NCBI RefSeq assembly: GCF_003990445.1
Contig: NZ_REEZ01000014.1
Location: 1-64,000 of the forward strand
Source of the DNA: Pararhodobacter zhoushanensis
Lineage (GTDB): Bacteria; Pseudomonadota; Alphaproteobacteria; Rhodobacterales; Rhodobacteraceae
Length of the DNA stretch: 64,000 nucleotides
Direction of reading: 5' to 3'
Shown here: positions 4,703-57,963 of the stretch, one piece after another
How the letters are laid out: every line of letters starts with the position of its first letter
How positions within the stretch are numbered: the stretch's first letter is position 1
Notes under the pieces: generated by a model
Told to the model about the DNA's origin: nothing
The model's database searches: none
What the model saw: the letters and a program-made list of their open reading frames with translations, nothing else
Program-made: the position numbers and the translations under genes

Positions 4703-5881
4703 ATGCCCCAAGACGGAAGCGCTTTGCTGTCCGGCCACCGTGCGCTGGTTCTGGGTGCCGGTGTCGCCGGACTTGCCACCGCGACGGCGCTGCGCCGCTT
4801 TGGTGCGCAGGTCGGTATTCTGGAACAGGCCCCCGCGATCACCGAGGTCGGCGCGGGGTTGCAGATCAGCCCGAACGGCACGCGGGTGTTGCGGGCTTTG
4901 GGGATCGATCCCGCCGAAGTTGGCGATCTTTCAGAGGCGGTCGAGCTGCGCAATCGCAGCGGACGGCTGGTCACGCGGCTGGACCTGCCACAAGATCCCG
5001 GCTTTTTCCTCTGCCACCGGGCGGACCTGATTGCGGCGCTCGAGCGTGCCATGCGGGCCTCGGGGACCGAGGTGCAGTTGCTGCAGAAAGTCACGGGAAT
5101 CGCGCTGGTTGAGGGAGGCGCGCGCGTCACCACAGGCGTCGGCGCGCGCCATGATACACCGCTGCTGATCGGTGCCGACGGGCTGCACTCGCCCCTGCGC
5201 GCCGCGCTCAATGGCATGGCTCAGCCGTTTTTCACCGGCCAGGTCGCCTGGCGGGCGACGATCCCCGGCGATGGCGGTGCGCGCGTCGCACAGATTTTCA
5301 CCGGCCCCGGCCAACATCTGGTCAGCTACCCGCTGCGCGGCGGCACGCTGCGCAACATCGTCGCCGTGCAAGAGCGCCAGAGCTGGGCGGCTGAGGGCTG
5401 GAACCATCCCGACGATCCCGACGCCCTGCGCGCGGCTTTCGCCCGCTTTGGCGGCCCGGTTCCCGGGTGGCTATCGGCTGTGCGCGACACGTATCTGTGG
5501 GGCCTGTTCCGCCACCCGGTTGCGAGGCAATGGCACGACGGCGCCGGGCGCGCGGCTCTCGTCGGCGACGCCGCACACCCGACGTTGCCCTTCATGGCTC
5601 AGGGCGCCAATTTGGCGCTCGAGGATGCTTGGGCGCTCGCCTCGACGCTCGCTGCGACTCCCGAGAACACGGCCGCAGCCCTGAGCGCCTACGCCATGCG
5701 TCGCGCGCCCCGGGCGGCAAAGGTCGTCGCCGAAGCCAACAGCAACGCGCGCAACTACCACCTGCGCGCGCCGCTGGCCCCAGTGGCTCACGCCATCCTG
5801 CGGGCTGGTGACCGGCTGGCGCCGGGAATGGCGCTGCGGCGGTATGCGTGGATCTATGACCATGATGTCACCGCCCCCTAG
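4703..5881 (+). CDS. FAD-dependent aromatic-ring monooxygenase
   Basis: A 392-residue class A flavoprotein monooxygenase (salicylate or 3-hydroxybenzoate hydroxylase-like). The N-terminal dinucleotide-binding motif is VLGAGVAGLATATAL, with an acidic FAD ribose contact (LEQAP). The second FAD motif is ALVGDAAHPTLPFMAQGANLALEDA. The conserved DG region is LLIGADGLHSPLR. The substrate cannot be assigned; FAD/NAD(P)H-dependent hydroxylation of an aromatic compound is the family chemistry. It lies 25 bases after dksA with no clear shared function. Confidence 0.85.
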   Translation: MPQDGSALLSGHRALVLGAGVAGLATATALRRFGAQVGILEQAPAITEVGAGLQISPNGTRVLRALGIDPAEVGDLSEAVELRNRSGRLVTRLDLPQDPGFFLCHRADLIAALERAMRASGTEVQLLQKVTGIALVEGGARVTTGVGARHDTPLLIGADGLHSPLRAALNGMAQPFFTGQVAWRATIPGDGGARVAQIFTGPGQHLVSYPLRGGTLRNIVAVQERQSWAAEGWNHPDDPDALRAAFARFGGPVPGWLSAVRDTYLWGLFRHPVARQWHDGAGRAALVGDAAHPTLPFMAQGANLALEDAWALASTLAATPENTAAALSAYAMRRAPRAAKVVAEANSNARNYHLRAPLAPVAHAILRAGDRLAPGMALRRYAWIYDHDVTAP

Positions 5882-5969
5882 CGCAGCTGTCGGCCACGGT
5901 CGCCTAAGACAGACCGGGCAGCCGCAGTCTGGGCCCCCAGATCGACTAACGCCGACTTCCCCCCTCTGA

Positions 5970-6045
5970 GGCTATTTGAACAGCAAAAGGGACGGTAATC
6001 CTCTGTTAACCTTACCGCATTTTCTGTCTGAAAATATCCACGGGA
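5970..6045. repeat. Degenerate palindromic intergenic element (copy R2)
   Basis: Between convergent genes. The segment 6018-6039 (CATTTTCTGTCTGAAAATAT plus cc) matches the right arm of the element at 17225-17248 with one change. The left side has diverged, and only a short CGGTAA/TTACCG inverted repeat remains. It looks like a half-decayed member of the same repeat family. Confidence 0.55.
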
Positions 6046-6120
6046 GGTGTCCAGAGGAGGGGGTGTGCCCCCTCCTCTGGCGAGGGAGCGCGAGGGGCGA
6101 GGAGTCCCTCGCACACCCGC

Positions 6121-6522
6121 TCAGGCGTTAAGCGCCAGGTCGAACAATCCCTGAATGTCGCTGACCGAGGTTCCCGCAACCGTCCGGCCCAGTTCAACCT
6201 CGCCTTTCAGCGCGATGATCGTCGAGCGGCGCGGCACCGCGAAGCGTTGTGACAGCGCGCCGTTGCCATAGTCGTCCCAATCGACATGGATCAGCGTCAA
6301 CTGGCTGTCATAGGCCGGGTTCTCGGCACGCAGCTGTTCCATGATCCGCTGCTGGCGCGCGCAGGTCGAGCACCAGGTGGCGTAGAAATCCAGAATGATC
6401 CGGTCGCCGCGCGCCATGGCGTCTTCGGCCAGTCCGGGCGTGTAGGGCACAAACTCGGCGCGGGCGGCCAGCGGCATCAGGGACACGGTGGCGGTCAACA
6501 TCAGGAAGTCGCGTCTCAGCAT
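6121..6522 (-). CDS. Periplasmic thioredoxin-like protein
   Basis: A 133-residue exported thioredoxin-fold protein. ATG 6522 gives a signal peptide that begins MLRRDF (twin-arginine pair) followed by a hydrophobic stretch ending ARA. The mature part carries the redox motif WCSTC and the thioredoxin cis-proline region VPRRSTII. It lies 22 bases downstream of the CcdA-like gene on the same strand, so it likely receives electrons from it. It may act in periplasmic disulfide reduction or cytochrome c maturation. Confidence 0.85.
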   Translation of the reverse strand: MLRRDFLMLTATVSLMPLAARAEFVPYTPGLAEDAMARGDRIILDFYATWCSTCARQQRIMEQLRAENPAYDSQLTLIHVDWDDYGNGALSQRFAVPRRSTIIALKGEVELGRTVAGTSVSDIQGLFDLALNA

Positions 6523-6544
6523 GGGGAAGGTCTCCGGCTTGGGG

Positions 6545-7258
6545 TCAGATGAGGATGGACAGGTCGTTGAACCAGTTGGGCAGGGTCTGGATCGCCCAGA
6601 TTTCCAGTACACGGTGAACGCCGAACCACAGGCCCAGCCCCACCAGAACAAAGGTCACGCCCAGCACCGGTTTTGCCGCTTGGGCGATGCGCCGCATCAG
6701 CGCGGCGCGGCGTTGCAGGGCGCTGCGCGCACCGTAAGCTAGCGCCAGCATCACCACGCAGACACCCAGCGCAAAGGCGACCATGATGGCAGCGGCCTGC
6801 GCCAGCCCATCGCCGCTGGCGGCCAGCGCGATGGCACCGCCCAACGTGGGGCCGATACAGGGCGACCAGACAGCACCCAGCAGCACGCCGCCAAGCGCCA
6901 TGCCCCAGGGGCCGGACTGGTCGAGCTGCGTGATCCTTGCGTCGGCGTGATTGGCCAGCCCCGCCGTCGCACTGGCAAAGCGGGTGTTCAGCGCCGGCAC
7001 CAGCAGCACCAGCCCGAAGGCGACCATGACCAGCGCTGCGGCGGCTTCAACTGTCTCCGGCGTCAGGCCGATCGACGGCCCCAGCCGCGCAAGCGCCAGC
7101 CCGATCAGCACAAAGCTGCTGCCCATGCCGGCCATCAGATAAAGCGGCCCGTGCCGGTCAGCCGCCGTCGCCGAGGCCAGTACGATGGGCAGCACCGGCA
7201 ACACGCAGGGGTTCAGGAGCGTCAGTGCGCCGGCGAGAAAGCCGAGAAGAATATCCAT
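6545..7258 (-). CDS. CcdA/DsbD-like transmembrane thiol-disulfide transporter
   Basis: A 237-residue polytopic membrane protein of the CcdA family, which moves reducing equivalents from cytoplasmic thioredoxin to periplasmic partners. ATG 7258 starts MDILLGFLAG. The two redox-active cysteines sit in LLNPCVLPVLP (helix 1) and VWSPCIGPTLGGA (helix 4), each with the family prolines. Six hydrophobic helices are visible. It is cotranscribed with the thioredoxin-like gene that follows. Confidence 0.88.
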   Translation of the reverse strand: MDILLGFLAGALTLLNPCVLPVLPIVLASATAADRHGPLYLMAGMGSSFVLIGLALARLGPSIGLTPETVEAAAALVMVAFGLVLLVPALNTRFASATAGLANHADARITQLDQSGPWGMALGGVLLGAVWSPCIGPTLGGAIALAASGDGLAQAAAIMVAFALGVCVVMLALAYGARSALQRRAALMRRIAQAAKPVLGVTFVLVGLGLWFGVHRVLEIWAIQTLPNWFNDLSILI

Positions 7259-7343
7259 CTGCTCCGGTCCGGTTGGGGCCTTTCCCTTACGATACGGACC
7301 TACCGGGCCTTTCGTTGCGCGCGCGCGATGACAAACCCGTGAT

Positions 7344-8516
7344 CTAGAGCGGCTTTTGGCGCGACACGATCCCCGCGCCGACCAGCAGCACCGCCGATCC
7401 CGCCAGCAGCGCCACGCCGATACTGCCTGCATGGTCGCCCAGCATTCCTGCCGCGTAGGGGCCGACGGTTTGCGCCACCGCGAAAACCAGCGTGAACAGG
7501 GCGATGGCGCTGCCCCAGCTCTCGGAAGGCAGGTTCTGGCGGGTGAAGTTGGTCACCGCACTTGGGGCCATGAAGACGCAAGAGCCGAACACGACAGCCG
7601 AGACGACCAGCCCCGGCAGCGTCGGCCACAGCACGGGCAGGGCCGAACCGACGGCGATGCCTGTCAACACCAGCGCCAGCGGTCGCCCGCTGGCGTGGCG
7701 GGCAAACACACCGCGCCAGAGCATCGGCGACAGCGAAATGCACGCGCCCAGCAGCACCCAGACCAGCGCCACCTGCAGCGCACTCGCGGCCTGTTCCTTC
7801 ATCCAGGCGGACAGGAAAGTGAGATAGACGATGTACCCCAGCCCGAACCCGGCATAGCCGGCGAATTGCGGCAACATGCGCGCCAGAGGCAGGGCAGGGG
7901 CGTTGACATCGCGGCGCGGCACCAGCGGCGCTTTCAGCGCGGCCCACAGACCCAGCGGGACGCAGAGCAGGCTTAAACCCCCGACGATCAGCCAGGCAAA
8001 GGGCCAGGCGTTGTCGCCCCATTCGTCCAGCATCAACGGCAGCGTCGCCCCGGCCAGTACAATTGCCATACCGCCGCCCGACCCGAACAGGATACCGATC
8101 CCCAGCGCATTGCGCCTGGGGTCCGTGGCCCAGAGCCGCGCCGCCAACGCTCCGGCGGTCGAAAACGACAGCGCGCCGAACAGCCCGGCGATGAACCGCC
8201 ACAGGCTCTGCCACCACAGCGCCGGCACCAGTCCTGTGGCCACCAGCGACAGCGCCGTCATCACCAGTCCGGCCGCGAACAGCGCGGCGGGTCCGCGTCG
8301 CCTGAGCGCCAGCATCGTTCCCGCCGCGCCCAGAATATACCCCAGCGCATTGGCGGTGTTCAGCCAGCCCGCCTGTGCGTAGGTCCAGTTCAGATCGGCG
8401 CGCATCGCGGGCAGGATAAGACCATAGGCAAAGCGCGCGAAGCCATTGGTGACCAGCACGCCCAGAGACAGCCCGGTCAGCACCAGCCACGGATTGGCCG
8501 TGTTCGTCTCGTTCAT
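7344..8516 (-). CDS. MFS transporter, YbfB/YjiJ-type
   Basis: A 390-residue major facilitator protein with about 12 hydrophobic segments, starting at ATG 8516 (MNETNTANPW). The early sequence NGFARFAYGLILPAMRADL is typical of the YbfB/YjiJ family, and the cytoplasmic loop motif ALRRRGP follows helix 2. The substrate is unknown. The gene diverges from pheS across about 120 bases that must hold both promoters. Confidence 0.82.
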   Translation of the reverse strand: MNETNTANPWLVLTGLSLGVLVTNGFARFAYGLILPAMRADLNWTYAQAGWLNTANALGYILGAAGTMLALRRRGPAALFAAGLVMTALSLVATGLVPALWWQSLWRFIAGLFGALSFSTAGALAARLWATDPRRNALGIGILFGSGGGMAIVLAGATLPLMLDEWGDNAWPFAWLIVGGLSLLCVPLGLWAALKAPLVPRRDVNAPALPLARMLPQFAGYAGFGLGYIVYLTFLSAWMKEQAASALQVALVWVLLGACISLSPMLWRGVFARHASGRPLALVLTGIAVGSALPVLWPTLPGLVVSAVVFGSCVFMAPSAVTNFTRQNLPSESWGSAIALFTLVFAVAQTVGPYAAGMLGDHAGSIGVALLAGSAVLLVGAGIVSRQKPL

Positions 8517-8635
8517 CGGCCTGTCCCCCCGGCGTTCCTCTCTTTGATGCCGCGTCGTTTGCGTCACAACAACCCCGGCCGCTTGCAATCACGCCACGTC
8601 ACGGATAGCAGGGGCGCGTGATGTCGGAGGCTGCT

Positions 8636-9697
8636 ATGGATCAGTTGCGCGAAACCTATCTGGCCCGTATTTCGGCCGCTGCCGATGCGGCCGCGCTGGA
8701 AGAGGTGCGGCTTGCCGCGCTGGGAAAAAAGGGCGAAATCAGCCTGATGATGCGCGAGCTGGGCAAGATGTCGCCCGAAGAGCGCCAGACCACCGGCAAG
8801 GCGCTCAACCAGTTGCGCGACGAGCTGGACTCGGCCCTGCGCGCCCGCAAGACGACGATGGAAGACGCGGCGCTCGACGAGCGGCTGAAAGCCGAATGGC
8901 TGGACGTGACGCTGCCCGCCCGCCACCGCGCGCGCGGCACCATCCATCCGGTCAGCCAGGTGACCGAGGAATGCACGGCAATCTTCGCCGACATGGGGTT
9001 TCGCGTGGCCGAGGGCCCGCAGATCGAGACCGACTGGTACAATTTCGACGCCCTGAACATCGCGCCCGAGCATCCTGCGCGTCAGGAGCATGATACGTTC
9101 TTCATGCACCGCGCCCCCGGCGACAACCGCCCGCCGCATGTGCTGCGCACCCATACCTCGCCGGTGCAGATCCGCGCCATGCAGGAGCAGGGCGCGCCGA
9201 TCCGCGTGATCGCGCCGGGCCGCGTCTACCGCATGGACATGGACCAGACCCACGCGCCGATGTTCCACCAGATCGAAGGTATGGCGATTGATCGCGATAT
9301 CTCGATGGCGAACCTCAAATGGGTGCTTGAGGAATTCTTCACCGCCTTCTTCGGCACCAAGGTCAAGACCCGCTTCCGCGCCTCGCATTTCCCTTTCACC
9401 GAGCCTTCGGCCGAGGTGGATATCCAGTGCTCCTGGGTCAACGGGCAATTGCGCGTGGGCGAGGGGGACGGTTGGCTGGAAGTGCTCGGTTCGGGCATGA
9501 TGCATCCCAAGGTGCTGCGCGCGGGCGGCATTGATCCCGACCAGTGGCAGGGCTTTGCCTTTGGTATGGGCATCGACCGTATGGCGATGCTGAAATACGG
9601 CATTCCCGACTTGCGCGCGTTCTTCGAGAGCGATTTGCGCTGGCTGCGGCATTATGGCTTTGGTGCGCTCGAAGCGCCGAGCGTGCACGCCGGGTAA
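8636..9697 (+). CDS. pheS: Phenylalanine-tRNA ligase alpha subunit
   Basis: The catalytic alpha subunit of the cytoplasmic alpha2-beta2 phenylalanyl-tRNA synthetase. ATG 8636 (MDQLRETYL) is preceded by GGAGG at 5 bases, so I prefer it to ATG 8621; it gives 353 residues. The N-terminal coiled coil contacts tRNA. Class II motif 2 is [18 protein letters not shown]-like and motif 3 is [16 protein letters not shown]. The beta-subunit gene lies about 5 kb downstream rather than adjacent. Confidence 0.96.
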
Positions 9698-10139
9698 GGT
9701 TCAGCCCGGGCAGCCGGGCCTCCCGGCTGCAGTTGGACGGGCTGTTACGTCCTGGGCAAACCGGGCACTCTACCGTGATTGTCCCTCTCGCACCGGCGCT
9801 GGCATCGGATCGTCAACGGATACGGTGCGCCCGAGGCGCGGTCGGTCAATGTGCTGATGGCGGCGGCGTAGGACCACGTCACTGGCGCGATCTCAGGCCC
9901 CAGCATCTGCGGGGCGGTGCTTCCTGCGTGCGCCCGCCCTCCGAGCGCCTGCAAGGCAGACAGGTTGTCGACCGCCAGCCTTGACGCGCGCGCTTGTGCG
10001 ATAGCTGGCGTCTCTGCCCCGGAAATCGGTTGCGCAGGTAAGACTTTCTTAACGCTTGGCTCTGTACTCACGAAGACTTGACACCGTCCGTGCGCATGCT
10101 GGACGCTGAGTTTTTATGAGTAGTGGGGAAGGTTCGGGG
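9698..10139. other. Gene-poor stretch after pheS
   Basis: About 440 bases with no supported gene. A 108-codon minus-strand frame (9745-10071) exists, but its translation lacks recognisable structure, and long chance frames are common at this GC content. The region just before 10140 must contain the promoter of the protease gene. Confidence 0.5.
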
Positions 10140-11045
10140 ATGTCGGTATCAAAGTTATATGCCTTGTGGCGCAGCCTGAGCGCGGCTTTGGCGTTCAGCG
10201 CGGTGGCGGCGCTGCCCGCGTTGGCGCAGAGCCCCAGTTTTGCCCAGCAGATTGTCGAGGCGCGTGCCCTCGCCGCCGCTGAGTCCGGGACCGCCCCGAC
10301 CCCCTCGATCGTGGGCGGTTGGGGCGTCAGTAACCGCGGGTACAACCGGCATTTTCGCTGGGTTGTCGCGCTGGTATCCGCCGGGGCCGATCCTTTTCTG
10401 GGGCAATTCTGTGGCGGTTCGCTGATCGCGCCGCAATGGGTGCTGACCGCAGCGCATTGCCTGCCGGGATTGTCCCCGTCGGCTGTGCAGGTGCTGACGG
10501 ATTCGCCTTTGTTGTCCACGGGTGGCACCATGATCGACGTTGATGCGATCTATTCCCACCCCGATTACGAAGCCGGGCCCGAGCATAATGACATCGGCCT
10601 GTTGCATCTGGCCACGCCGGTAGACCTGCCGCTGGCGGTGCCGGCCACCTTTGCTGCCATGCGCGCCCTCGGTCGTCCGGGTATGCGGCTGAACGCAATC
10701 GGCTGGGGCGATATGGGCGAAGGTGCGGGGAATTATCCTGACCGGCTTCGGCGTGTGGTCGTTCCCGTCACCACCCGGCGGCGCTGCCGGACCAACTATG
10801 GTGACGGTGCCATCACCGACAGCATGATTTGCGCGGGCCTGTATCGCGGCGGGCTCGACGCTTGCCAGGGAGATTCGGGCGGTCCGCTGTCGGCGGCTAT
10901 CAATGGCCAGTGGTTTGTGATTGGCATCACCAGCTGGGGCGATGGCTGCGCGCGGCCCAATCTGCCGGGGGTCTACACGCGGGTGTCGCATTTCCAGCAG
11001 TGGATCGCGGCGACAATGAACCAGCACAACAGCCGCGCCGACTAG
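10140..11045 (+). CDS. Secreted trypsin-like serine protease (S1)
   Basis: A 301-residue protease of the chymotrypsin fold. ATG 10140 follows a purine-rich GGGGAAGG and gives a signal peptide ending ALPALAQ at residue 30. The mature N-terminal motif IVGGWGV resembles a zymogen activation site. The full catalytic triad is present: His106 (VLTAAHCL), Asp151 (HNDIGLLHL) and Ser246 (CQGDSGGPL). Six cysteines allow disulfides (FCGG/AHC, RRC/MICAG, ACQG/DGCARP). It is likely periplasmic or extracellular. No linked substrate is evident. Confidence 0.9.
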   Translation: MSVSKLYALWRSLSAALAFSAVAALPALAQSPSFAQQIVEARALAAAESGTAPTPSIVGGWGVSNRGYNRHFRWVVALVSAGADPFLGQFCGGSLIAPQWVLTAAHCLPGLSPSAVQVLTDSPLLSTGGTMIDVDAIYSHPDYEAGPEHNDIGLLHLATPVDLPLAVPATFAAMRALGRPGMRLNAIGWGDMGEGAGNYPDRLRRVVVPVTTRRRCRTNYGDGAITDSMICAGLYRGGLDACQGDSGGPLSAAINGQWFVIGITSWGDGCARPNLPGVYTRVSHFQQWIAATMNQHNSRAD

Positions 11046-11311
11046 CTGGCGCTGCGGGAACCGTTTGCTGCACCGTGTACGCCGACATGCCCGCGTCGCC
11101 TTGCCGCGCTGAGGTTTTTCTTCGGCCCGGTTGGTGCCTCGTGTGGGCCTGTCCCCTGCCGGGTTGAGCCGAACTACGGGCGCTTTTTGCCGCCTGATGG
11201 GCCGCAGTCCCGGTGAGTTGACCCGTGCACCCTTGCCATGCCCCTCACCGCTCAACTAGGTTTGGGCCGCACCCCCCAGGGGATGCGGATGACCAAAGGG
11301 GAAGCCACCGC

Positions 11312-12751
11312 ATGACGCCGTTCCGCAACCGGGTGATCGCCGCCGGACTAGTTGCCTGTCTCGCCGGACCTGTTTTTGCACAGGACCTCAGCGAGGTGAT
11401 AACCCGCCAGTATGCCGACGGCGGCATCTACGAGGGCACGTTTCTGGACGGTTTGCAGCACGGCACCGGCACTTACCGGCTGCCCAACGGGTTTGAATAC
11501 ACCGGCGACTGGGTGCAGGGGCAGATCACCGGCGCGGGCACGGCGCGCTATCCCAATGGCTCGGTCTATGAGGGCCAGTTCGAGGACGGCCGCCCGCAAG
11601 GGCAGGGCCGCATGGTGTTTGCCGATGGCTCGTCCTACGAGGGCAACTGGGACGCAGGCCGCATCATGGGGCAGGGTGTGCGTCGCTATGTGACGGGTGT
11701 GGTCTACACCGGCGCCTTCGACGACAGCCAGCCGCATGGTACCGGCACGATGGAGCGGCCTGGCGGGCTGCGCTATGAAGGCGAGTGGCAGCATGGACTG
11801 CGTGAGGGGCAGGGGACCATAACCTACCCCGATGGCTCGACCTATGTCGGCGCAATGCACGCCGACCAGCGCCACGGCGAGGGGCGGCTAACGCGGCCCG
11901 ATGGCACGATTTATGACGGCGAGTGGTCAGAGAGCATGCTGCATGGCGCAGGCGTATTGACCCTGCCGGGCGGTGACCGGCGCGAAGGCACCTTTGAGCA
12001 GGGCGTCTTGCAGGGTGTCGGTCGCCTGATCATGGCCAATGGGGCGATCTACGAGGGCGATTTCGTCGATGACATGCGTCAGGGGCGCGGGCGGCTCAGT
12101 TCGGCGCAAGGCTATGTGTATTCCGGCGATTGGGTGGCGGACCGCATCGACGGCTCCGGCGTGATGACGGCCCCCGATGGCGCGCGCTATGACGGCCAGT
12201 TCCGCGACGGCGTGCCCGACGGCGAGGGGGTGATCACCTATGCCGATGGCACAGGCTATACCGGGCAGTGGTCAGAGGGCCGGATCGAAGGCCAGGGTCG
12301 GGCGCGTCTTGGTGAGAACATGGTCTATGAGGGCAATTTCCGCGCCGGCCAGCCGCAGGGGCAGGGCCGCATGGAATACCCCGACGGGCGCATCTACACC
12401 GGCGATTTCGTCGGCGGTGTGCGTGAGGGGCAAGGCGTGATGGTCTACCCCGATGCGACCCGCTTCGAGGGCGGCTTTGTCGGCGGCGAGCGCGAAGGAC
12501 AGGGGACGATCACGCTGGCCGATGGGTTCACCTATACCGGCGAATGGCGCGCAGGCCGGATCGAGGGCGAAGGCACCGCGACCTATGCGACGGGCGATGT
12601 GTATGAGGGGCAGTTCGTTGATGGCCAACGCGTCGGTCGCGGCACGCTGCGCTACGCCGCCGGGCAGGTCGTCTCGGGGCGCTGGGAACAGGGCGTGCTG
12701 GTCGAGCCGGACGCGGCGGGAGCCGAAGCGCCGGCCACGAACGATGGGTAA
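11312..12751 (+). CDS. Secreted MORN-repeat protein
   Basis: A 479-residue protein with a signal peptide (MTPFRNRVIAAG...VFAQ) and then about 18 tandem MORN repeats of exactly 23 residues, each close to Y-x-G-x-W/F-x-x-G-x-x-x-G-x-G-x-x-x-x-x-D-G. The repeats fill residues 35-460, leaving only a short acidic/alanine tail. The expected shape is a long beta-hairpin blade used for protein or lipid contact in the envelope. No enzymatic domain is attached. The gene follows the protease on the same strand, but the 266-base gap suggests a separate promoter. Confidence 0.9.
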   Translation: MTPFRNRVIAAGLVACLAGPVFAQDLSEVITRQYADGGIYEGTFLDGLQHGTGTYRLPNGFEYTGDWVQGQITGAGTARYPNGSVYEGQFEDGRPQGQGRMVFADGSSYEGNWDAGRIMGQGVRRYVTGVVYTGAFDDSQPHGTGTMERPGGLRYEGEWQHGLREGQGTITYPDGSTYVGAMHADQRHGEGRLTRPDGTIYDGEWSESMLHGAGVLTLPGGDRREGTFEQGVLQGVGRLIMANGAIYEGDFVDDMRQGRGRLSSAQGYVYSGDWVADRIDGSGVMTAPDGARYDGQFRDGVPDGEGVITYADGTGYTGQWSEGRIEGQGRARLGENMVYEGNFRAGQPQGQGRMEYPDGRIYTGDFVGGVREGQGVMVYPDATRFEGGFVGGEREGQGTITLADGFTYTGEWRAGRIEGEGTATYATGDVYEGQFVDGQRVGRGTLRYAAGQVVSGRWEQGVLVEPDAAGAEAPATNDG

Positions 12752-12809
12752 GCTGAGGCTTCGGACGGGGGGCGCTGCCCCCCACCGGGCCGTTCCGGCC
12801 CGCCCCCCG

Positions 12810-12876
12810 GGATATTTCAGGCATAAAGTTGGGTTAACAGAATCTTAACGCCCAACTTTATGCTTCAAATATCCTC
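12810..12876. repeat. Palindromic intergenic element (copy R3)
   Basis: An inverted repeat between convergent genes: left arm GATATTT...GCATAAAGTTGGG (12811-12833) and right arm CCCAACTTTATGC...AAATATC (12851-12872), with TTAAC and TTAACG in the spacer. The stem sequence is the same type as copy R1 at 2982-3053. The outer hairpin found in R1 and R4 is absent. Confidence 0.8.
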
Positions 12877-12931
12877 AGGGGGGTGAATTCGCTGAAAGCG
12901 AAGAGGGGGGCTGACAGCCCCCCTTTCGCGT

Positions 12932-13582
12932 TCACCGCAAGGGCAACAGCGTCGTTGCGCTCAGGCGGCATTCGCGGCGGGTGAGGGCCGGGCCGCAATC
13001 CATCGGTTCCAGCGCGCGGGTCAGGCAGATCCGCAATTCGACCATCGCGCCGCCTGGGCAACTGGTGACGATGCGGTCCTGCGTCAGGTCCGGGTTGGCT
13101 TCGATAAACGCCGCCTCCACCACCTCGGGCCCGACGCGCAATTCGCGGTTAACGCCCTCGAACACCTCGGGCAGGGCGATCTCGTCGACCGCAGCCTGCA
13201 CCAGCCGGTAATAGTTCTGCGCCGACAGGCCCGAGCAGCGCCCGTGCTTGTTCCACTGGTGCCAGGCCGAGCCCGACGTTCCAAACAGATCCGCCTGTTG
13301 CGCGGTTTCGCGCCGCGAGGGCGCGCGCTCGGTGGTGTTGCAGTACTCCGGCCAGTCGCCCCCCGCATTCTGTGGCCAGAGCCCGTGGACCGCCCAACCG
13401 ATGGCACTGCCCTCGCGGCAGCGCGGATCATCGCGGTCGTCGCCATCGGTGGCGCAATAGGCCGGGATCCAGCTGAGCGCGAGAAGGTAATGGTCAAACG
13501 CGCCCGCCCGGTCCTGCGCGCCAGCGGCAGGGGCGGCGAAAATCGGCAAAAGGGCTGCAAAGGCGGGGATCAGGCGCTGCAT
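12932..13582 (-). CDS. Ribonuclease T2 family protein
   Basis: A 216-residue exported RNase. ATG 13582 gives a signal peptide ending AAGAQ. Both conserved active-site segments are present: HGLWPQ (CAS1) and WHQWNKHGRC (CAS2), containing the catalytic histidines and the acid/lysine positions. Several cysteines support disulfides. T2 enzymes cleave single-stranded RNA through 2',3'-cyclic phosphates; a periplasmic scavenging role is likely. The gene is divergent from trcR. Confidence 0.9.
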   Translation of the reverse strand: MQRLIPAFAALLPIFAAPAAGAQDRAGAFDHYLLALSWIPAYCATDGDDRDDPRCREGSAIGWAVHGLWPQNAGGDWPEYCNTTERAPSRRETAQQADLFGTSGSAWHQWNKHGRCSGLSAQNYYRLVQAAVDEIALPEVFEGVNRELRVGPEVVEAAFIEANPDLTQDRIVTSCPGGAMVELRICLTRALEPMDCGPALTRRECRLSATTLLPLR

Positions 13583-13720
13583 TTTCTCTTTCCTATGGTC
13601 CTCGGGGCGCTTATATACGCTCCATTCCCCGAAATCGAGGATGCGTGGCCCGCGGCCGCGGCCGGTCCCCCGGCGACTGCCGCGCCATGCGGTTCTCGCC
13701 GGATTGAAGGATCGATAACG

Positions 13721-14503
13721 ATGGCTAAACCGTTGATGGCGAAGGCTACCGCCGTGTGGTTGGTAGACAACACGACGCTCAGCTTCAAACAGGTCGCTGA
13801 TTTTTGCGGCCTGCACGAGCTTGAGGTGCAGGGCATTGCCGACGGTGATGTCGCGACGGGCGTGAAGGGGTTCGACCCCATCGCCCATAATCAGCTCGAA
13901 GAAGTCGAGATCAAGAAGGGCGAGGCGAATCCCGCCTATGCGCTCAAGCTGAAGTTCAACCCGGCCTCGGTCGGTGAGGAAAAGCGCCGTGGCCCGCGCT
14001 ACACGCCGCTCAGCAAACGTCAGGACCGCCCGGCCTCGATCCTGTGGCTGGTCAAGTTCCACCCCGAGCTGGCCGATTCCCAGATCCGCAAGCTGGTCGG
14101 CACGACCAACCCGTCGATCCAGGCGATCCGCGAGCGTACGCACTGGAACATCCAGAACATCCAGCCCATCGACCCGGTTGCGCTGGGTCTGTGCCGCCAG
14201 TCCGAGCTGGATCTGGAAGTGCAGAAAGCCGCCAAGGCCAAGGCCGCCGAAGGCACCGTGATGACCGATGACGAGCGTCGCAAGCTGGTGTCGACCGAGC
14301 AGTCGCTGGACATGTCGGACGAGCCGCGCCTGCCCTCGAACATGGCCGGGCTTGAGACCTTCACGCTGGGCGGTTCCTCGGATGAAGAGGCCGACGAGCA
14401 CAAGAAGCCGGTGGATTATTCCAACGCCGACAGCTTCTTCAACCTGCCCGATGGCGAGAAGGACGACGATGAGGACGAGGAAGACGACAAGCCTCGCCGC
14501 TGA
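13721..14503 (+). CDS. trcR: Cell cycle regulator TrcR (DUF1013)
   Basis: A 260-residue protein that matches the alphaproteobacterial DUF1013/TrcR family along its whole length. An N-terminal helix-turn-helix-like region (KATAVWLVDNTTLSFKQVADFCGL) is followed by the conserved core HPELADSQIRKLVGTTNPSIQ and a strongly acidic tail (DGEKDDDEDEEDDKPRR). TrcR is described as an RNA polymerase-associated cell-cycle transcription regulator. ATG 13721 is well placed. A strong terminator follows directly, so trcR and pheT are separate transcription units. Confidence 0.9.
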   Translation: MAKPLMAKATAVWLVDNTTLSFKQVADFCGLHELEVQGIADGDVATGVKGFDPIAHNQLEEVEIKKGEANPAYALKLKFNPASVGEEKRRGPRYTPLSKRQDRPASILWLVKFHPELADSQIRKLVGTTNPSIQAIRERTHWNIQNIQPIDPVALGLCRQSELDLEVQKAAKAKAAEGTVMTDDERRKLVSTEQSLDMSDEPRLPSNMAGLETFTLGGSSDEEADEHKKPVDYSNADSFFNLPDGEKDDDEDEEDDKPRR

Positions 14504-14526
14504 TCGCCTTTGCTTTGACCCTGTCA

Positions 14527-14556
14527 GGCGCGTCCCCCCGGGGGCGCGCCTTTTTT
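14527..14556 (+). terminator. Rho-independent terminator after trcR
   Basis: A GC-only stem, GGCGCG-TCCCCC paired with CGGGGG-CGCGCC, followed directly by six T residues, 24 bases after the trcR stop codon. This is a textbook intrinsic terminator. Confidence 0.9.
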
Positions 14557-14650
14557 ACTGGCGCGCGCACAGGCCGGACTGCCGCCTTTCCTTGGCCGCG
14601 CGGATCGGCTAACAGGGCGCGCAAAGCGGAACGAAACCGAAGGTCTGGCG

Positions 14651-17074
14651 ATGAAATTCACCCTGTCGTGGCTCAAGGAACATCTGGACACTGCAGCCAG
14701 TCTCGACACCATCGTCGAGGCGCTGACCGATCTGGGGCTTGAGGTTGAAGAGGTCTCGGACCCGGCCCAAAGTCTGGGCGCGTTCCGCATCGCGCGCATT
14801 CTGGAAGCCGTGAAGCACCCCGACGCTGACAAACTGCGGCTCTGCCGGGTTGAAACCCTGCCCGACGGGCCGGGGGGCAAGATTGAGGAAGTACAGGTCG
14901 TCTGCGGTGCGCCGAATGCGCGCACCGGGCTGGTCGGCGTCTTCGCGCCCGTGGGTACGCATGTGCCGGGCACCGGCGTCGATCTGAAACCGGGCGTGAT
15001 CCGGGGGCAGGCGTCCAACGGCATGATGTGTTCGGAACGCGAGCTGATGCTCAGCGACGACCATGACGGCATCATCGACCTGCCCGCCGATGCGCCGCTG
15101 GGCGCGCGCTATATCGACTATGCGGGCCTCAATGACCCGATGATCTATATCAAGATCACGCCGAACCGCCCCGACGCGCTGGGCGTGCGCGGCGTTGCGC
15201 GCGATCTGGCCGCGCGCGGTCTGGGCACGCTGAAACCGCTGGTGGCCGAGCCGGTGGCGGGCGCGTTCCCCAGCCCTCTGCGCGTCGCCATTGATCCGTC
15301 GCTCAAGGACAAGGGCTGCCCGCTTTTCGCCGGTCGCGTGATCCGCGGCGTCAAGAACGGCCCTTCGCCGAAATGGCTGCAAAAGCGGCTGACGGCGATC
15401 GGGTTGCGGCCGATCTCTGCGCTGGTCGATGTGACCAACTTCTTCACCTTTGCGCTGAACCGCCCGCTGCACGTCTTCGACGTGGCCAAGGTTGCGGGCG
15501 ACACGCTGCGCATCCATCCGGCGGCGGGCGGCGAGGAGATCCTCGCGCTCGACGGCAAGACCTATATGCTGGCCGCCGGAATGATGGCGATCTCGGACGC
15601 GAATGGCGTCGAGAGCATCGCGGGCATCATGGGCGGCGAGCATTCGGGCTGCACCGACGAGACCACCGATGTCTTCGTCGAGAGCGCCTATTGGGACCCG
15701 ATCACCGTGGCCACCACCGGCCGCGCGCTCAAGATCAACTCGGATGCGCGCTATCGCTTCGAGCGCGGCGTGGATCCGGCGTTCACCCTGCCGGGGCTGG
15801 AACTGGCAACGCGGATGATTCAGGAGCTCTGCGGCGGCGAGGCGAGTGAGCTGGCCGTTGATGGCACAGCCCCCGACACCACGCGACAGTACCGCTTCGA
15901 CCCCGCCCGTGTGGTCAGTCTGGTCGGTATGGACATCCCCGAGTTCGAACAGCGCGCCACGCTGGAGGCGCTGGGCTTCGGGCTGGACGGCACGCAGGTG
16001 ACCCCGCCGAGCTGGCGACCTGATGTGCTGGGCGACGCGGATATCGTTGAGGAAATCGCGCGCATCGCCTCGCTGACCAAGCTTGAGGGCAAGCCGATGG
16101 CGCGGGCGACGGTGGGCGTTCCGGCACCGATCCTGACGCCGATGCAAAAGCGCGAGCGGCTGATGCGCCGCACGCTGGCGGCGCTCGGCTACCATGAATG
16201 CGTCACCTACAGCTTCATTGATGGTGCGTCGGCGGCGCTGTTCGGTGGCGGTGAGGATGCGTTGAAGCTGGAGAACCCGATCTCCAGCGAGATGACGCAT
16301 ATGCGCCCCGATCTGCTGCCCGGCCTGCTGCAGGCCGCAGCCCGCAATCAGGCGCGCGGCTTTGCCGATATGGCGCTGTTCGAACTGGGCCCGGTGTTCC
16401 ACGGCGGCGAGCCGGGCGAGCAGGCGATCCACGCCACCGGCTTGCTGGTCGGGGCCAATGGCCCGCGCGATCCGCATCATGCGCGCCGTCCGGTCGATGT
16501 GTTCGACGCCAAGGGCGACGCCGAGGCCGTGCTCGCCGCGATCGGCGCACCGGCGCGGATGCAGGCGGATCGCAGCGTTGCCGGGTGGTTCCACCCGGGC
16601 CGCTCGGGCCGCCTGACGCTGGGGCCGAAACTGGCGCTGGCCAGCTTTGGCGAGGTCCATCCGCGCGTTCTCAAAGCCTACGGCATTAAGGGCAGCGTTG
16701 TCGCCTTCACGCTGCCCGTCGCCGCCGCACCAATGCCACGCAACGCCTCGGCCACCCGCGCGGCGCTGGTGCTCAATGACCTGCAGCCGGTAGAGCGCGA
16801 TTTCGCTTTCGTGCTTGATGAGAGCGTCGAGGCCCTTGCCGTGGTCAATGCGGCGCAAGGCGCAGATAAGGGGCTGATCGACAGCGTACGGGTGTTCGAC
16901 GAGTTCACCGGCGACAAGGCCGCAGCACAAATGGGCGCGGGCAAGAAATCGCTGGCGATCACCGTGCGATTGCAGCCGCAGGGCCAGACACTGACCGAAA
17001 AAGACATCGAGGCGGTCAGCGCCAAGATCATCGACAAGGTCGGCAAGGCCACCGGCGGCGTGCTGCGCGGATAA
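14651..17074 (+). CDS. pheT: Phenylalanine-tRNA ligase beta subunit
   Basis: An 807-residue beta subunit of phenylalanyl-tRNA synthetase. Domains in order: N-terminal tRNA-binding/EMAP-like domain (residues about 40-150, LEAVKHPDADKLRLCRV), B3/B4 editing domain (about 210-390, with HVFDVAKV and SIAGIMGGEHSG), B5 domain, a catalytic-like core (MTHMRPDLLPGLLQAA), and the C-terminal FDX anticodon-binding domain (LQPVERDFAFVLDE to RLQPQGQTLTEKDIE). Length and order are normal. It pairs with the alpha subunit encoded at 8636-9697. Confidence 0.96.
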   Translation: MKFTLSWLKEHLDTAASLDTIVEALTDLGLEVEEVSDPAQSLGAFRIARILEAVKHPDADKLRLCRVETLPDGPGGKIEEVQVVCGAPNARTGLVGVFAPVGTHVPGTGVDLKPGVIRGQASNGMMCSERELMLSDDHDGIIDLPADAPLGARYIDYAGLNDPMIYIKITPNRPDALGVRGVARDLAARGLGTLKPLVAEPVAGAFPSPLRVAIDPSLKDKGCPLFAGRVIRGVKNGPSPKWLQKRLTAIGLRPISALVDVTNFFTFALNRPLHVFDVAKVAGDTLRIHPAAGGEEILALDGKTYMLAAGMMAISDANGVESIAGIMGGEHSGCTDETTDVFVESAYWDPITVATTGRALKINSDARYRFERGVDPAFTLPGLELATRMIQELCGGEASELAVDGTAPDTTRQYRFDPARVVSLVGMDIPEFEQRATLEALGFGLDGTQVTPPSWRPDVLGDADIVEEIARIASLTKLEGKPMARATVGVPAPILTPMQKRERLMRRTLAALGYHECVTYSFIDGASAALFGGGEDALKLENPISSEMTHMRPDLLPGLLQAAARNQARGFADMALFELGPVFHGGEPGEQAIHATGLLVGANGPRDPHHARRPVDVFDAKGDAEAVLAAIGAPARMQADRSVAGWFHPGRSGRLTLGPKLALASFGEVHPRVLKAYGIKGSVVAFTLPVAAAPMPRNASATRAALVLNDLQPVERDFAFVLDESVEALAVVNAAQGADKGLIDSVRVFDEFTGDKAAAQMGAGKKSLAITVRLQPQGQTLTEKDIEAVSAKIIDKVGKATGGVLRG

Positions 17075-18426: not shown

Positions 18427-18503
18427 CGGAGTGTAGCTCAGCTTGGTAGAGCACTGTCTTCGGGAGGCAGGGGCCGGAGGTTCGAATCCTCTCACTCCGA
18501 CCA
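18427..18503 (+). tRNA. tRNA-Pro (CGG), prophage integration target
   Basis: A complete 77-base cloverleaf: acceptor CGGAGTG/CACTCCG, D-arm GCTC/GAGC, anticodon stem CTGTC/GGCAG around TTCGGGA (anticodon CGG), T-arm with GTTCGAA, and encoded CCA. The 3' 45 bases are repeated at 57964-58008, so the prophage used this gene as attB and rebuilt it intact on the left side. Confidence 0.96.
18459..18503 (+). other. attL core (45-bp direct repeat)
   Basis: The segment from the anticodon loop of tRNA-Pro to its CCA end is identical base for base to 57964-58008. One more mismatch-interrupted stretch (CTGT) extends the similarity leftward. This is the expected crossover region of a tyrosine-recombinase element. 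Confidence 0.93.
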
Positions 18504-18863
18504 ATGAAATCAATGGCTTATCGCCCAATTTGGGCGCCCCGAAATAGGCCCGCCCAAGATTCGCCCAAGCTTGACGCAAAATGTCCCAAGAAGAAGCCGC
18601 CGCCCTTGATCGAGGGCGGCGGCTTCTGGTTGTTTGGGCACCTTCCGAAAGTTACGCGAGCTTTGAGCACGATTTCAGTCGCGTGCTGTGTTGGCACGAA
18701 GGGCGGAGAGCGGACCTTTGCTGCGGACACACCAGCCAACTCTTGCCTATTTCGAAGCAGACATTGGCACACGGACCGACGTCATATACAAAGGCTCTAT
18801 TCAAAGTGAGTTCTGCATGTGGGTCAATGAAAGCAGGCGGATTGTTTGATTGGAGAACCCTTA

Positions 18864-20102
18864 GTGATTAACGAGGAAGAACAGGCTGCCTATCTGTTGG
18901 CTAAGAAAATGGTGCTTCAGGCCGTTTCAGAGCAGTGGAGCTACGTTTGTTTAAGTCCGCTCTTTCAAGGTGATGGCAATCCAAGGGAAGGCTTCGCAAT
19001 ACTCAAAGATCTTACAGTTTTGCCTGACGAAGTTCGCCATCTGACGTCAGGTGTGTTCATTGAGTTGAGGGGGACAGGCATCAATGACCTTCGACCTCTC
19101 GCCAATCTGGGCAGGCTTGGACAAGTCAATTTTGAAGGCATACCAGCAGCAGAAAACGATGCTGAACTGCAAATGATCGCAACAACTACTGACGTTGCGC
19201 AGAGAAGTGAACTTTTGCAAGGATGGTTGGATGCCAATAAAGTGGCAGACCCTCCCGAAGTTATAGAAGGTGGCCCTGAGTTCATAGTTGATGACCATGG
19301 CCCGATCAAACTGGTTGATGTTCCTCTAGTTGAAAGCGACGACGAAGACCAAGTTGAGCTTCAAGAAGAGTGCAAACGTAAGGTTGAAGAACTCTTAGGA
19401 ATCGTTGATCTGGCTGCGAACGTCGCTCCAAACCTGTTGTATACCGCTAAAAAATACCGCGAAATGATCGGTAACGATGCTTCTTCAATCGGAGCACGTA
19501 AGATCTGGTCTTTGGCTAACAGCCTTGAAGCGACGCTAGAAGTTCACGATCATGCAGTAAAAAATGACAGAGCATCTGACGAGTTACCCTCAACAGTTGC
19601 TGCAAAACTCGCCGATCTTGCAGAAACTCATCGAGTTTGGTTCCTCGGCCACCCCGGTGCACGCGAGGTTGAGCAGCGTGCAAGCAGACACGCTAATCAA
19701 AAGGATGGTCGGGAACGGCGGAAGGCTGCGATAACAATTGTGGAAGCTGCCGAGTCTTCCAATGCCGTGGCAGATGACGCTACATCAGTCGCACGAGAAA
19801 ACATCCAAACCTCTGATTTAGATACGCCCGCAGGGGTAGCCGCGTTGGGTGAGTTGGAGGAATGGGCTTGGAATTTTGTAGCTAGCGTAGTTAGGAAAGC
19901 TTGGCGTATCGCCAAGGACCCGCCCGGCGGATTCGTCAGCCATACCGTCGCCGGACATTACTTGTTGCTGTTTCTCACTAATAATGACCAAGTTATAGGG
20001 CAATACCTACAAAATGTGATGTCACAAAGCCCTCTTTGGTGGGAGATGTTTTGCAACTCTCTTCGCCGCCTCTCACAAATCCCTGAAAAGGACAAAGAAT
20101 AG
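18864..20102 (+). CDS. Hypothetical protein with LRR-like segment (prophage cargo)
   Basis: A 412-residue soluble protein of unknown function. GTG 18864 is preceded by GGAGA at 8 bases; TTG 18846 is an alternative start. Residues about 60-100 read like one or two leucine-rich repeats (VFIELRGTGINDLRPLANLGRL). The middle is acidic (ESDDEDQVELQEECKR), and the C-terminal third is helical with tryptophan-rich WAWNFVASVVRKAWRIAK. Base composition is clearly more AT-rich than host and phage core genes, suggesting separate acquisition. Its place between attL and integrase, beside a defence-like cassette, fits accessory cargo. Confidence 0.7.
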   Translation: MINEEEQAAYLLAKKMVLQAVSEQWSYVCLSPLFQGDGNPREGFAILKDLTVLPDEVRHLTSGVFIELRGTGINDLRPLANLGRLGQVNFEGIPAAENDAELQMIATTTDVAQRSELLQGWLDANKVADPPEVIEGGPEFIVDDHGPIKLVDVPLVESDDEDQVELQEECKRKVEELLGIVDLAANVAPNLLYTAKKYREMIGNDASSIGARKIWSLANSLEATLEVHDHAVKNDRASDELPSTVAAKLADLAETHRVWFLGHPGAREVEQRASRHANQKDGRERRKAAITIVEAAESSNAVADDATSVARENIQTSDLDTPAGVAALGELEEWAWNFVASVVRKAWRIAKDPPGGFVSHTVAGHYLLLFLTNNDQVIGQYLQNVMSQSPLWWEMFCNSLRRLSQIPEKDKE

Positions 20103-20896: not shown

Positions 20897-21193
20897 TTAC
20901 GCTGAAGAGTACTTACTGATCTCCTCAAAGTACCTGCGTTCACTGTCATCTTTGAATGAGGACTTGCTCTCAGAAAGCGATTGAAGCTTATTAAGAATGT
21001 GCTGATAAACAATCACATGAACCTCATTGGCGAGGTGATTGTCTTCCGGGGAGTCCATCTCAACATCCTCACTGAGGAAAGTGTCTAAGAGGGAGAGCAG
21101 TCCAGCTTTATCGATTTCGTCGATTTTCTTCCAGTCGCCTGTGGACTTTTCAACGAAAAAACCATTCCCATTTTCAATTTTTAAGATCTTCAT
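20897..21193 (-). CDS. Small acidic partner of the PHP-ATPase
   Basis: A 98-residue protein whose start (ATG 21193) lies inside the 3' end of the upstream ATPase gene, overlapping by 20 bases, so the two are translationally coupled. It begins with a short beta-like segment (MKILKIENGNGFFVEKSTGDWKKI) and continues as acidic helices (SLLDTFLSEDVEMDSPEDNH). I do not recognise a family. The fixed coupling suggests it is a dedicated subunit or regulator of the ATPase, for example an antitoxin-like or specificity factor; this is inference. Confidence 0.75.
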   Translation of the reverse strand: MKILKIENGNGFFVEKSTGDWKKIDEIDKAGLLSLLDTFLSEDVEMDSPEDNHLANEVHVIVYQHILNKLQSLSESKSSFKDDSERRYFEEISKYSSA

Positions 21194-23207
21194 AGGTCGC
21201 GCTCCTTTCTTCGTAGGTGGCGACGCCAGCTTCCAGATTCCCTAAAAGCACGTCCCTGGTGTTCAGGGAAAGACCGTCAGTAGAAACTAGTGTTTTGCTA
21301 CTTGGTCGTCCAGAATAAATTCTCCATTTGAGCTCGCCCATCTCAACATCTTTCCTGGTATACAAGAGGAAATCAGGTCGAATGGATACTCCAACAGTGT
21401 TATTATGTGTTACCACGACTACAGGCATCTGAGCTGACATCTCTTTGATCATTTCGTTGACCTCCGCCTTAAGGAAGTGGTTGTCAAAGGAGGACTCTGG
21501 CTCATCAATCAAAAGCACCTCGGCTGAGCTCGCGCCTTCAATTCTGTCCAAAAGGAAAAACTCCGACCGCTCGCCACCGGAGGCTTGAAGGCCATCTCTG
21601 TTCAAGATTTTGTAGTCGACCTTCACCAAATACCTACTGAACTCCGAAGCAACAACTGGATCACCAATCTTTCTCAGCTCTTGAATGAATTTATACGGCT
21701 GGGAGTATGCCGAAAAGGCTGCGCTAAAACTCCTGGGAGATCGCGAAACAGCCTTAAGTTCACCGGCGCCAGAGAACCTTCCAACCTGAGCCACCACCTC
21801 GAAGCTTCCCTTTCGTTTCCGTAGCGGGGTCTTCGGCATTCGCGCAACTTCAACAAGCTCCTCAAATTTTTTGACAGCATTCTTATTTGACGCAACGCGA
21901 AAGAGATCAACCTCGGTGACGCCGGTTGCGGAAGATTTTCGTTGAAGTTTTCCCTTTATGTCAAAGAGGACGCTGTTCACCCACTCTTTTTTGAGGTTGA
22001 CCTCTTCATGTCCCTCATAGGTCCTCATTAATTCCACATATAGCGCTTTCAGGCTATCGTGGTTTAAGTGCTTATCAATTGCCTCTCGATACTCAACGTT
22101 GCTCACGAGCTTCTTGGTTGAGGAGACTAAATCAATGAGGCCTGCTAGGTCTTTCTTCCGGAAGGCATCTTCACTAAAAAACTTCGCCTTAGAGAATGCG
22201 TCTTGGCGACTAGTTTCTCTTGCATACGATAGGAGCGATGAAATATATTTCTCGACTGATGCATTGTCGGACTCTAAGTCTATCTCTAAAACATCTGCGA
22301 CAGCTGACTGCAAGTCTGACAAGTAATCCCTCGCAAATAGGCTGGTGCTCTCGCTCAGAAAGTCTTTGAATTTCTTCGCATCCTCGGCCTCATCTCGAGA
22401 CACTAGGTCGAACTGTCTAATATAATACGAGTTCTCCTCGCCAAACCAATCAAAAACTCTCTGAAGAGTGTGAGACTTTCCGGACGACCTGTCACCCAGA
22501 ACCACATTTAGGCCAGTCGAAAGAAGTTGCCCATCGGATCCAATTTGGAAAAATTTGTTTCCCTCGCCCTTCGATAGCTTTACCTTGCTTTTATCTTTAA
22601 GCGCCTGCCGCAGGCTTCCGAACGAGATATCATCGCAATCTATATAAGTTTGCTTGGTCGGCAGATCAGAAAGGCATTCTGATATCCTGCAGTCGCTAAA
22701 AAATACTGGAATTAGCATCTCGGCGTCCTTAACGCAGGACAGAAACTTTTTCGGGCTACTAACCTCGCCGCAGGTGATATACCTAGACAGCCTTCCTAGT
22801 AGGTCCACCCCTATTCGTGGGTTCTTGAGGTAGTGAGGAATAAGTATGTACTGAGAGAGATTCCCAAATATCTCTTCAAATCGCGCCGCGTTCAAGGGGT
22901 TCTCCGTGTCCGCCCAACTGTCAGATACCTTTTGGCAACGCTCGGAAAATTCGTTGAGATCCTGCCCGCTCGATATAACTAGAATATGGCAATTTTCGAC
23001 ATCCACTTCGATGCCGGGTAGACACAATGCATCGATACTGGATCTGATTAATTCGAATTGTGATACGTCGAAAAGATTGTGATTTGTAATCGAAATGCAG
23101 TCAAGCTCGGCATCCGCAACATATCGCTTCAAATTGTCCAAGCTGAAGATAAAATCTTTATCCTGACTGCTACTCTTTGTATGCATGTGCAGATCTATCT
23201 TTTTCAT
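21174..23207 (-). CDS. PHP-phosphoesterase/ABC-ATPase fusion (TrlF-like)
   Basis: A 677-residue two-domain protein. I chose ATG 23207, which puts MKKIDLHMHTKSS at the N-terminus. Residues 1-200 are a PHP phosphoesterase with metal-ligand candidates His7, His9 (LHMHT), His43 (TNHN), Glu67, His74, His125 and Asp172. The rest is an ABC/SMC-type ATPase: Walker A GDRSSGKS (238-245), a long helical insertion, signature ASGGERSE (542-549), Walker B VLLIDEPESSFDN (564-576) and an H-loop VVVTHNN (His601). This layout resembles TrlF-family ATPases, which are linked to nucleic-acid conflict systems. In a prophage cargo slot it is a good anti-phage candidate. Its AT-rich composition differs from the phage core. 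Confidence 0.85.
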   Translation of the reverse strand: MKKIDLHMHTKSSSQDKDFIFSLDNLKRYVADAELDCISITNHNLFDVSQFELIRSSIDALCLPGIEVDVENCHILVISSGQDLNEFSERCQKVSDSWADTENPLNAARFEEIFGNLSQYILIPHYLKNPRIGVDLLGRLSRYITCGEVSSPKKFLSCVKDAEMLIPVFFSDCRISECLSDLPTKQTYIDCDDISFGSLRQALKDKSKVKLSKGEGNKFFQIGSDGQLLSTGLNVVLGDRSSGKSHTLQRVFDWFGEENSYYIRQFDLVSRDEAEDAKKFKDFLSESTSLFARDYLSDLQSAVADVLEIDLESDNASVEKYISSLLSYARETSRQDAFSKAKFFSEDAFRKKDLAGLIDLVSSTKKLVSNVEYREAIDKHLNHDSLKALYVELMRTYEGHEEVNLKKEWVNSVLFDIKGKLQRKSSATGVTEVDLFRVASNKNAVKKFEELVEVARMPKTPLRKRKGSFEVVAQVGRFSGAGELKAVSRSPRSFSAAFSAYSQPYKFIQELRKIGDPVVASEFSRYLVKVDYKILNRDGLQASGGERSEFFLLDRIEGASSAEVLLIDEPESSFDNHFLKAEVNEMIKEMSAQMPVVVVTHNNTVGVSIRPDFLLYTRKDVEMGELKWRIYSGRPSSKTLVSTDGLSLNTRDVLLGNLEAGVATYEERSATYEDLKN

Positions 23208-57443: not shown

Positions 57444-57963
57444 GGCAATGTTTACTCCCAAAAGCGGCGAACTCTTCGCCGCGCTAGCTATGCATACCGG
57501 CGGCCGGGGCTGCAAGCCCTCGGGTGCCGGAGGGAGAAAGCTGCGAAATGTGATGTAAGCCAGCCCTACGGTCTCCCCTCACTCTAGGCTGTGGATGTAG
57601 GGAGCTCGCCGGTTCAAAGTGTCAAACAGGCTCGGCTCTCCCCGCCTATTTTTGCGCATGCCACGGTCTACGAATGAAGTTCCTCTATAATGCCGGGAAC
57701 GAGACGCCAATCGCCTGCGCGTTACGGCCATTCGTGCCGGGCGTAGCGAAGGTCCGGCTTCCGCCCTTCACGATGACGCGACAACTGAGTCACTAACCGC
57801 GCCACGGCGGAATAGGGAACTATGTGACGGCTCCTGGCGCTGCATGAAAGCTGGGCGTTTTCGCCCATGCTTCGCCCATGCTTGGAGGTATTTGCAGCGG
57901 TTTTTACGGTCCAAAAAGAGAACATGCAAGGTATTTAACATGAACAAATGTCTTGGAACTGTT
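57444..57963. other. Gene-poor stretch before attR
   Basis: About 520 bases up to the attR core. A 67-codon minus-strand frame (57722-57925) lacks supporting features. The promoter of the lipoprotein gene should lie at the left end of this stretch. No phage gene was recognised. Confidence 0.5.

Follow-up and report, generated by a model that had tools for sequence, protein, structure and literature searches.

What do two overlapping genes, inserted in AT-richer DNA between an attachment site and the integrase of a prophage, do for the cell that carries them? The question is raised by a 64,000-nt stretch of Pararhodobacter zhoushanensis DNA (contig NZ_REEZ01000014.1, positions 1 to 64,000; hereafter the window). 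Here gene A encodes a protein with a predicted PHP domain and an ABC/SMC-type ATPase, and gene B a small protein. An earlier reading of the letters without database searches (the sequence-only reading) had proposed them as a candidate anti-phage pair, and this proposal is supported, as a candidate, by PADLOC-DB 2.0.0, which lists a phage defence candidate (PDC) of two genes, M49A and M49B, named PDC-M49. We found that gene A scores 857 bits against the PDC-M49A model PDLC04680 (residues 1-677 onto model positions 1-674), while gene B scores 105 bits against the PDC-M49B model PDLC04682 (residues 1-96). Judged by these profile matches, the window pair belongs to PDC-M49, and its novelty is low because both genes are already catalogued. 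The suggestion that the small partner might be a new component consequently falls. The two open reading frames (ORFs) and their overlap were confirmed at the following positions.

21174 to 23207, minus strand: gene A (PDC-M49A), 677 residues, ATG at 23207, stop ending at 21174; predicted PHP domain at about residues 1-190, ABC/SMC-type ATPase at about 230-677
20897 to 21193, minus strand: gene B (PDC-M49B), 98 residues, acidic, matching PDLC04682; ATG at 21193, stop ending at 20897
21174 to 21193, minus strand: overlap of A and B, 20 nt, with a Shine-Dalgarno-like AGGAG just 5' of the ATG of B, inside A

According to two reports, the PDC families were found via "guilt by embedding" (PMC12988326, PMC12429752). 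The name PDC-M49 did not occur in the literature searched, and there is therefore no report there of its testing. For PDC-M63AB and PDC-S04, which are further candidates of this kind, tests in the native host are reported to have shown no effect (PMC12409345).

The PHP-ATPase protein

For the analysis of gene A we compared 16 full-length proteins: that of the window, 14 others, and one from a viral contig (L064). The 14 others share 26-69% identity with the window protein; the plasmid copies in Rhizobium and Phaeobacter stand at 69% and 68%. All seven PHP residues named beforehand are present: H7, H9, H43, E67 and D172 are invariant (16/16), H74 is kept in 15/16, with Gln in L041, and H125 in 11/16, with Glu in the five clade-II proteins. 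At position 174, which we take to be the site of the last canonical PHP histidine, 11 of the 16 proteins have Arg and five His; the window protein belongs to the R174 clade. As in known PHP structures, H7, H9, E67 and D172 presumably form one metal site in all A proteins, and E67, H74 and H125 a second one in most of clade I.

The ATPase had been described as complete, and indeed Walker A, Q-loop, SGG signature, Walker B, D-loop and switch His are all invariant in the 16 proteins (G238, G243, K244, Q265, S543-G545, D568-E569, D575 and H601). The spacing from Walker A to the signature is 300-306 residues in every one of them. Pfam SMC_N and AAA_21 score below cut-off for the window protein; AAA_21 is above cut-off for L047 and L064.

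Structures of A and B were predicted from alignments of five sequences, with the window and related loci as rows. The model of A is weak (predicted local distance difference test, pLDDT, 63.6 from five sequences). With this model, Foldseek gave the PHP domain of RNase AM as the best match, followed by the heads of cohesin and MukB, all with low TM-scores, and JetC at E 2e-3 and worse. The top 20 rows of a VIA comparison comprise C-family DNA polymerases, RNase AM and entries titled phosphoesterase or amidohydrolase, at Z 9.5 to 8.2 (PolC 9.5, 154 residues aligned at 3.5 A; RNase AM 9.2, 159 residues at 3.4 A), and unrelated rows for a different region of the model likewise attain Z 8.2. As far as is known, each of these 20 entries holds a PHP domain.

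The small partner

Profile searches and the inspection of neighbourhoods confirmed the constant pairing: B adjoins A in 16/16 intact copies, window included, and no intact A without B was met among the copies examined. With the start codons as chosen, the genes overlap by 20 nt in 11 copies, by 23 nt in four and by 26 nt in one. The acidic character noted for the window protein (net charge -8) extends to all 16 copies counted, with net charges of -4 to -11. We fetched plasmid stretches for 14 of the 57 plasmid records that match A, and all 14 have a small gene at the place of B. In three cases it stands beside a broken A, and in one (L061) it is the partner from group 3, as we call the unnamed PHP-ATPase pairs L061, L065, L066, L071 and L072. 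The three loci with a broken or truncated A (L045, L048 and L062) are Enterococcus plasmids, and B is intact in each. Of 394 genomes of the same family, three are hit by the A model at E 1e-30, and exactly these three are hit by the B model at E 0.001; in one of them (G743), A and B lie at the ends of different contigs.

With the overlap removed, the ratio of non-synonymous to synonymous substitution rates (dN/dS) of B is 0.14-0.21 in three staphylococcal pairs, in which A gives 0.14-0.19. Because of these values B looks like a constrained gene. The window and L041 give 0.175 for B at dS 2.6; silent sites of B were saturated in six of the ten pairs tried. The identities of A and B correlate closely (r = 0.955 over 120 pairs; 0/5000 permutations), which shows joint inheritance, as distinct from contact. 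The predicted model of B is good (pLDDT 87.6) and consists of three short strands, one helix and a 40-residue C-terminal helix; a search of the PDB with it gave no significant match.

The prophage setting

The pair is cargo of a prophage of about 39.5 kb and lies between attL and the integrase, because the 3' end of a tRNA-Pro gene recurs as an att copy and PHROGs matches are found in between. These matches cover eight of ten scanned window ORFs between the att sites, seven with an assigned function (integrase, repressor, terminase, portal, head protease/capsid, tail protein and tail fibre J) and the eighth with none.

18427 to 18503, plus strand: tRNA-Pro(CGG), of which the 3' part, 18453-18503, is attL
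57958 to 58008, plus strand: attR, copy of the tRNA 3' end, 51 nt, 98% identity
23683 to 24804, minus strand: prophage integrase (phrog_1, 117.7 bits)
18846 to 20102, plus strand: second cargo ORF, 418 residues, TTG start as listed, adjoining the pair and outside the described system

The G+C content across the pair is 46-51% (1-kb steps, 20-23 kb) versus about 65% over most of the window, so that the AT-richer DNA described by the sequence-only reading is real. It had also called this place a classic slot for defence cargo. The position is correct, but a hotspot is not established, because the integrase's two nearest relatives in the genus have no AT-rich insertion comparable to that of the window beside them. 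The second cargo ORF, likewise in AT-richer DNA, is without a family match in Pfam, NCBIfam, PADLOC and PHROGs and has a single weak plasmid match, in Azospirillum (25.5% identity over 54%). It is a possible second cargo gene and worth attention.

Distribution and neighbours

Among 72,556 plasmid records, 57 contain a match to A (Enterococcus 45, Staphylococcus 9, and Rhizobium, Phaeobacter and Photobacterium one each); none of 50,697 phage records does. Presence is patchy, with 3/394 genomes of the family and, among 19 of the genus, only the genome of the window itself. A recombinase or transposase gene lies at most 1 kb upstream of A in 9/14 of the fetched plasmid stretches.

The candidacy for defence gains further support from nine of the 24 flanked relatives, which have recognised defence genes as neighbours; this is a raw count without background rate, for which chosen neighbours were scanned (L055: none). 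The 24 are the 14 plasmid stretches, near copies included, together with L003, L004, L055, L064, L065, L066, L069, L070, L071 and L072; a methyltransferase at L066 in a phage setting was left out of the count.

L043: AbiH
L048: AlwI restriction-modification and TIR
L054: abortive-infection protein
L061: type II restriction-modification
L004 and L069: HsdR
L064: HsdR and an HsdM-like gene below cut-off (95 of 243 bits)
L065: PDC-S26
L071: Shango SngABC and an Stk2-like kinase

Four of the 14 plasmid stretches (L047, L058, L059 and L060) have Fst-family (type I) toxin genes annotated downstream, near B, an arrangement that also fits plasmid maintenance, and a RelE/ParE toxin is annotated in L054.

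Two arrangements deserve mention in their own right. On the viral contig L064 (8001-14120), an EcoAI-type HsdR and the HsdM-like gene come immediately after the M49 pair, and neighbouring ORFs resemble, by eye, tail and lysis genes. On the E. faecalis plasmid NZ_CP124933.1 (24403-30900; L054/L085), the pair has a recombinase on either side, the first accompanied by Mu-type transposase and AAA genes, an arrangement that suggests a transposon with nothing but this pair as cargo.

Proposed mechanism and alternatives

Ppl is a described relative. According to a review, E. coli Ppl is a single-gene 3'-5' exonuclease of single-stranded DNA with PHP and NTPase domains, inhibited by bound nucleoside triphosphates (NTPs), and its activity requires nucleotide depletion and free 3'-OH ends together (PMC12904381). 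In S. epidermidis, ppl was tied to phage resistance by a genome-wide association study, with a mechanism not known to those authors (PMC13152194).

Because A shares the domain order of Ppl and is linked to it via TrlF-type proteins, we take A to be a putative ATPase-gated nuclease and B its putative regulator. On balance we believe, with some reserve, that the PDC-M49 pair is an anti-phage system, made of a Ppl-like PHP nuclease (A) and a regulatory subunit (B) and carried as prophage cargo. The pair would protect the lysogen against other phages. In this system A would combine a metal-dependent PHP nuclease with an ABC/SMC-like ATPase, the latter sensing the condition of the cell or of DNA ends. 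Plentiful NTPs would hold A inactive, as in Ppl, until an infecting phage drains the nucleotides and exposes DNA ends; A would then be released and degrade DNA. B would be made by coupled translation from the message of A and would bind A, either keeping it quiet or loading it. By analogy with Ppl, nuclease activity can fairly be expected of A, and NTP gating by the ATPase with moderate confidence. The regulatory role of B is a guess, made because of the constant pairing and the missing partner in four longer single-gene forms. The binding of B to A and the protection against phage are predictions as well.

The same protein could be read as an SMC-like DNA sensor in the manner of Wadjet or Lamassu, with an ATPase that reads DNA shape or plasmid or phage DNA, the PHP domain as effector, and B playing a structural part (kleisin-like or clamp) instead of inhibiting. 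The Foldseek matches to cohesin and MukB heads, those to JetC at the E-values given, and the long helix of B would suit such a machine, and the 57 plasmid records are compatible with competition between mobile elements. SMC arms are, however, far longer than the 300-306 residues that A has between Walker A and signature, B has no kleisin-like match, and the profile kinship is to TrlF and Ppl, with no Wadjet or Lamassu among the matches listed for the window protein. We regard this sensor as unlikely. The three plasmids on which an intact B stands beside a broken A bear on a different idea, a toxin-antitoxin-like addiction pair in which A would be a toxic nuclease, B its antitoxin, and phage defence secondary to the stabilisation of prophage or plasmid. 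An intact B in 3/3 fetched broken-A loci, set beside an intact B with every intact A (16/16), would suit such a pair, and the small acidic partner, the frequency on plasmids and the Fst-family and RelE/ParE toxin genes point the same way. The sample is very small, however, and covers broken A genes in the fetched plasmid records only. Moreover, antitoxin genes usually precede toxin genes and B comes second, while the window copy and several relatives are carried as prophage cargo or have restriction systems next to them, so that we consider an addiction pair decidedly improbable.

Some Enterococcus copies are annotated as histidinol-phosphatase, which would make A a metabolic PHP phosphatase with an accessory ATPase, outside any conflict. 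That is very hard to reconcile with the patchy presence, with the full ABC ATPase and the TrlF/Ppl kinship, and with the locations seen for most copies, namely plasmids, prophage-like DNA or the vicinity of defence genes (what was examined of L003 and L070 shows neither), and we give it hardly any credence.

Like many other candidates, PDC-M49 was named purely from gene location. The window copy is compact, complete and prophage-borne and has a described relative in Ppl, so that direct tests can address both its mechanism and what the small partner does. Should B gate a Ppl-like nuclease, this would reveal the relation between the single-gene and the two-gene form of one sensor-nuclease, and the group-3 pairs would become a new set of candidates, half detected by current models.

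Comparison with known systems

A tree of 25 proteins (16 M49A, five group-3, four TrlF-type) resolves three clades with supports of 98/94 for M49A, 100/100 for group 3 and 99/98 for the TrlF-type; some long branches are flagged, including those of L066 and the TrlF-type rows. Group 3 is a sister group with the gene layout of M49. Its profile matches M49A at 99.9% (E 4.5e-37; three of five proteins), equivalents of the PHP ligands H, H, H, E, H, H and D are kept in the three proteins aligned, and the PADLOC M49A models score 90-124 bits on the four enzymes scanned. In 5/5 cases an overlapping ORF of 95-103 residues follows the PHP-ATPase gene (ATG starts, 11-20 nt overlap). In contrast, group 3 stands in a clade apart from M49A (100/100), its partner is unalignable to M49B (hhalign 0.3%), and the PADLOC M49B models gave no match to the three group-3 partners scanned of five. 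The spacing from Walker A to signature is 327-329 residues in four of the five proteins (those parsed). At L071 (G841:C2:1592000-1610000), 5484-15122, the group-3 pair lies directly after a Shango SngA/SngB/SngC operon (PADLOC) and before the Stk2-like kinase.

As the identity of A, the TrlF family ATPase (NF045780) was rejected, with 66.7 bits against a curated cut-off of 350. Because A fails this cut-off, kinship to TrlF is distant; "TrlF-like", the term of the sequence-only reading, holds for a distant relative only. What A and TrlF share is the domain order and a C-terminal motif, E-[AGS]-[GS]..[TA]-[YF]..[RK], common to TrlF-type proteins and 14/16 M49A by the strict pattern, in a comparison of M49A with the TrlF-type. 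In our reading they differ in that TrlF is a single large protein (model of 944 residues), whereas A has 677 residues and a coupled B. All four TrlF-type genes examined (862-963 residues) lack an ORF of 80-140 residues whose start falls between 60 nt ahead of the gene end and 300 nt beyond it. The spacing from Walker A to signature is 453 residues in one of the four TrlF-type proteins (the one parsed). On the viral contig L067 (5486-10562), a TrlF-family protein (566 bits) has in its vicinity an ORF resembling, by eye, a DNA cytosine methyltransferase.

Ppl was not retained as the identity of A either: it is absent from the 11 PADLOC families listed at E <= 1, and NF042955 is not among the best 25 of 32 NCBIfam matches, which leaves A far from its cut-off of 1000 bits. 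Like A, Ppl has a PHP domain followed by an ABC-type NTPase in one chain, and it falls into the same superfamily, reached via TrlF-type intermediates. At the ATPase end, the link through these proteins is by profile and spans 124 columns, the C-terminal motif among them; at the PHP end the link of A runs through the TrlF model. The differences are length, with A falling about 200 residues short of the 882 positions in the model of Ppl, and the conserved second gene of A, which the single-gene Ppl lacks. As far as these profiles reach, A is a member of a PHP-ATPase superfamily shared with TrlF and Ppl.

One may speculate, as a tentative idea that we would sooner doubt than adopt, about a compact two-gene Ppl/TrlF chassis with an obligatory small regulator gene, to which two unrelated or fully diverged regulators (those of PDC-M49 and of group 3) have been fitted. 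B would then decide when the nuclease fires or what it is loaded onto, replacing the longer arm of the single-gene forms. If so, current defence-finding models would detect the group-3 enzyme only weakly and would miss its partner.

Within PDC-M49 itself, the window pair matches both genes at near full length, in the same order and with an overlap as in its relatives, and is thus a member of that family. Its copy is prophage-borne and of the R174 clade, and in nothing essential does it differ.
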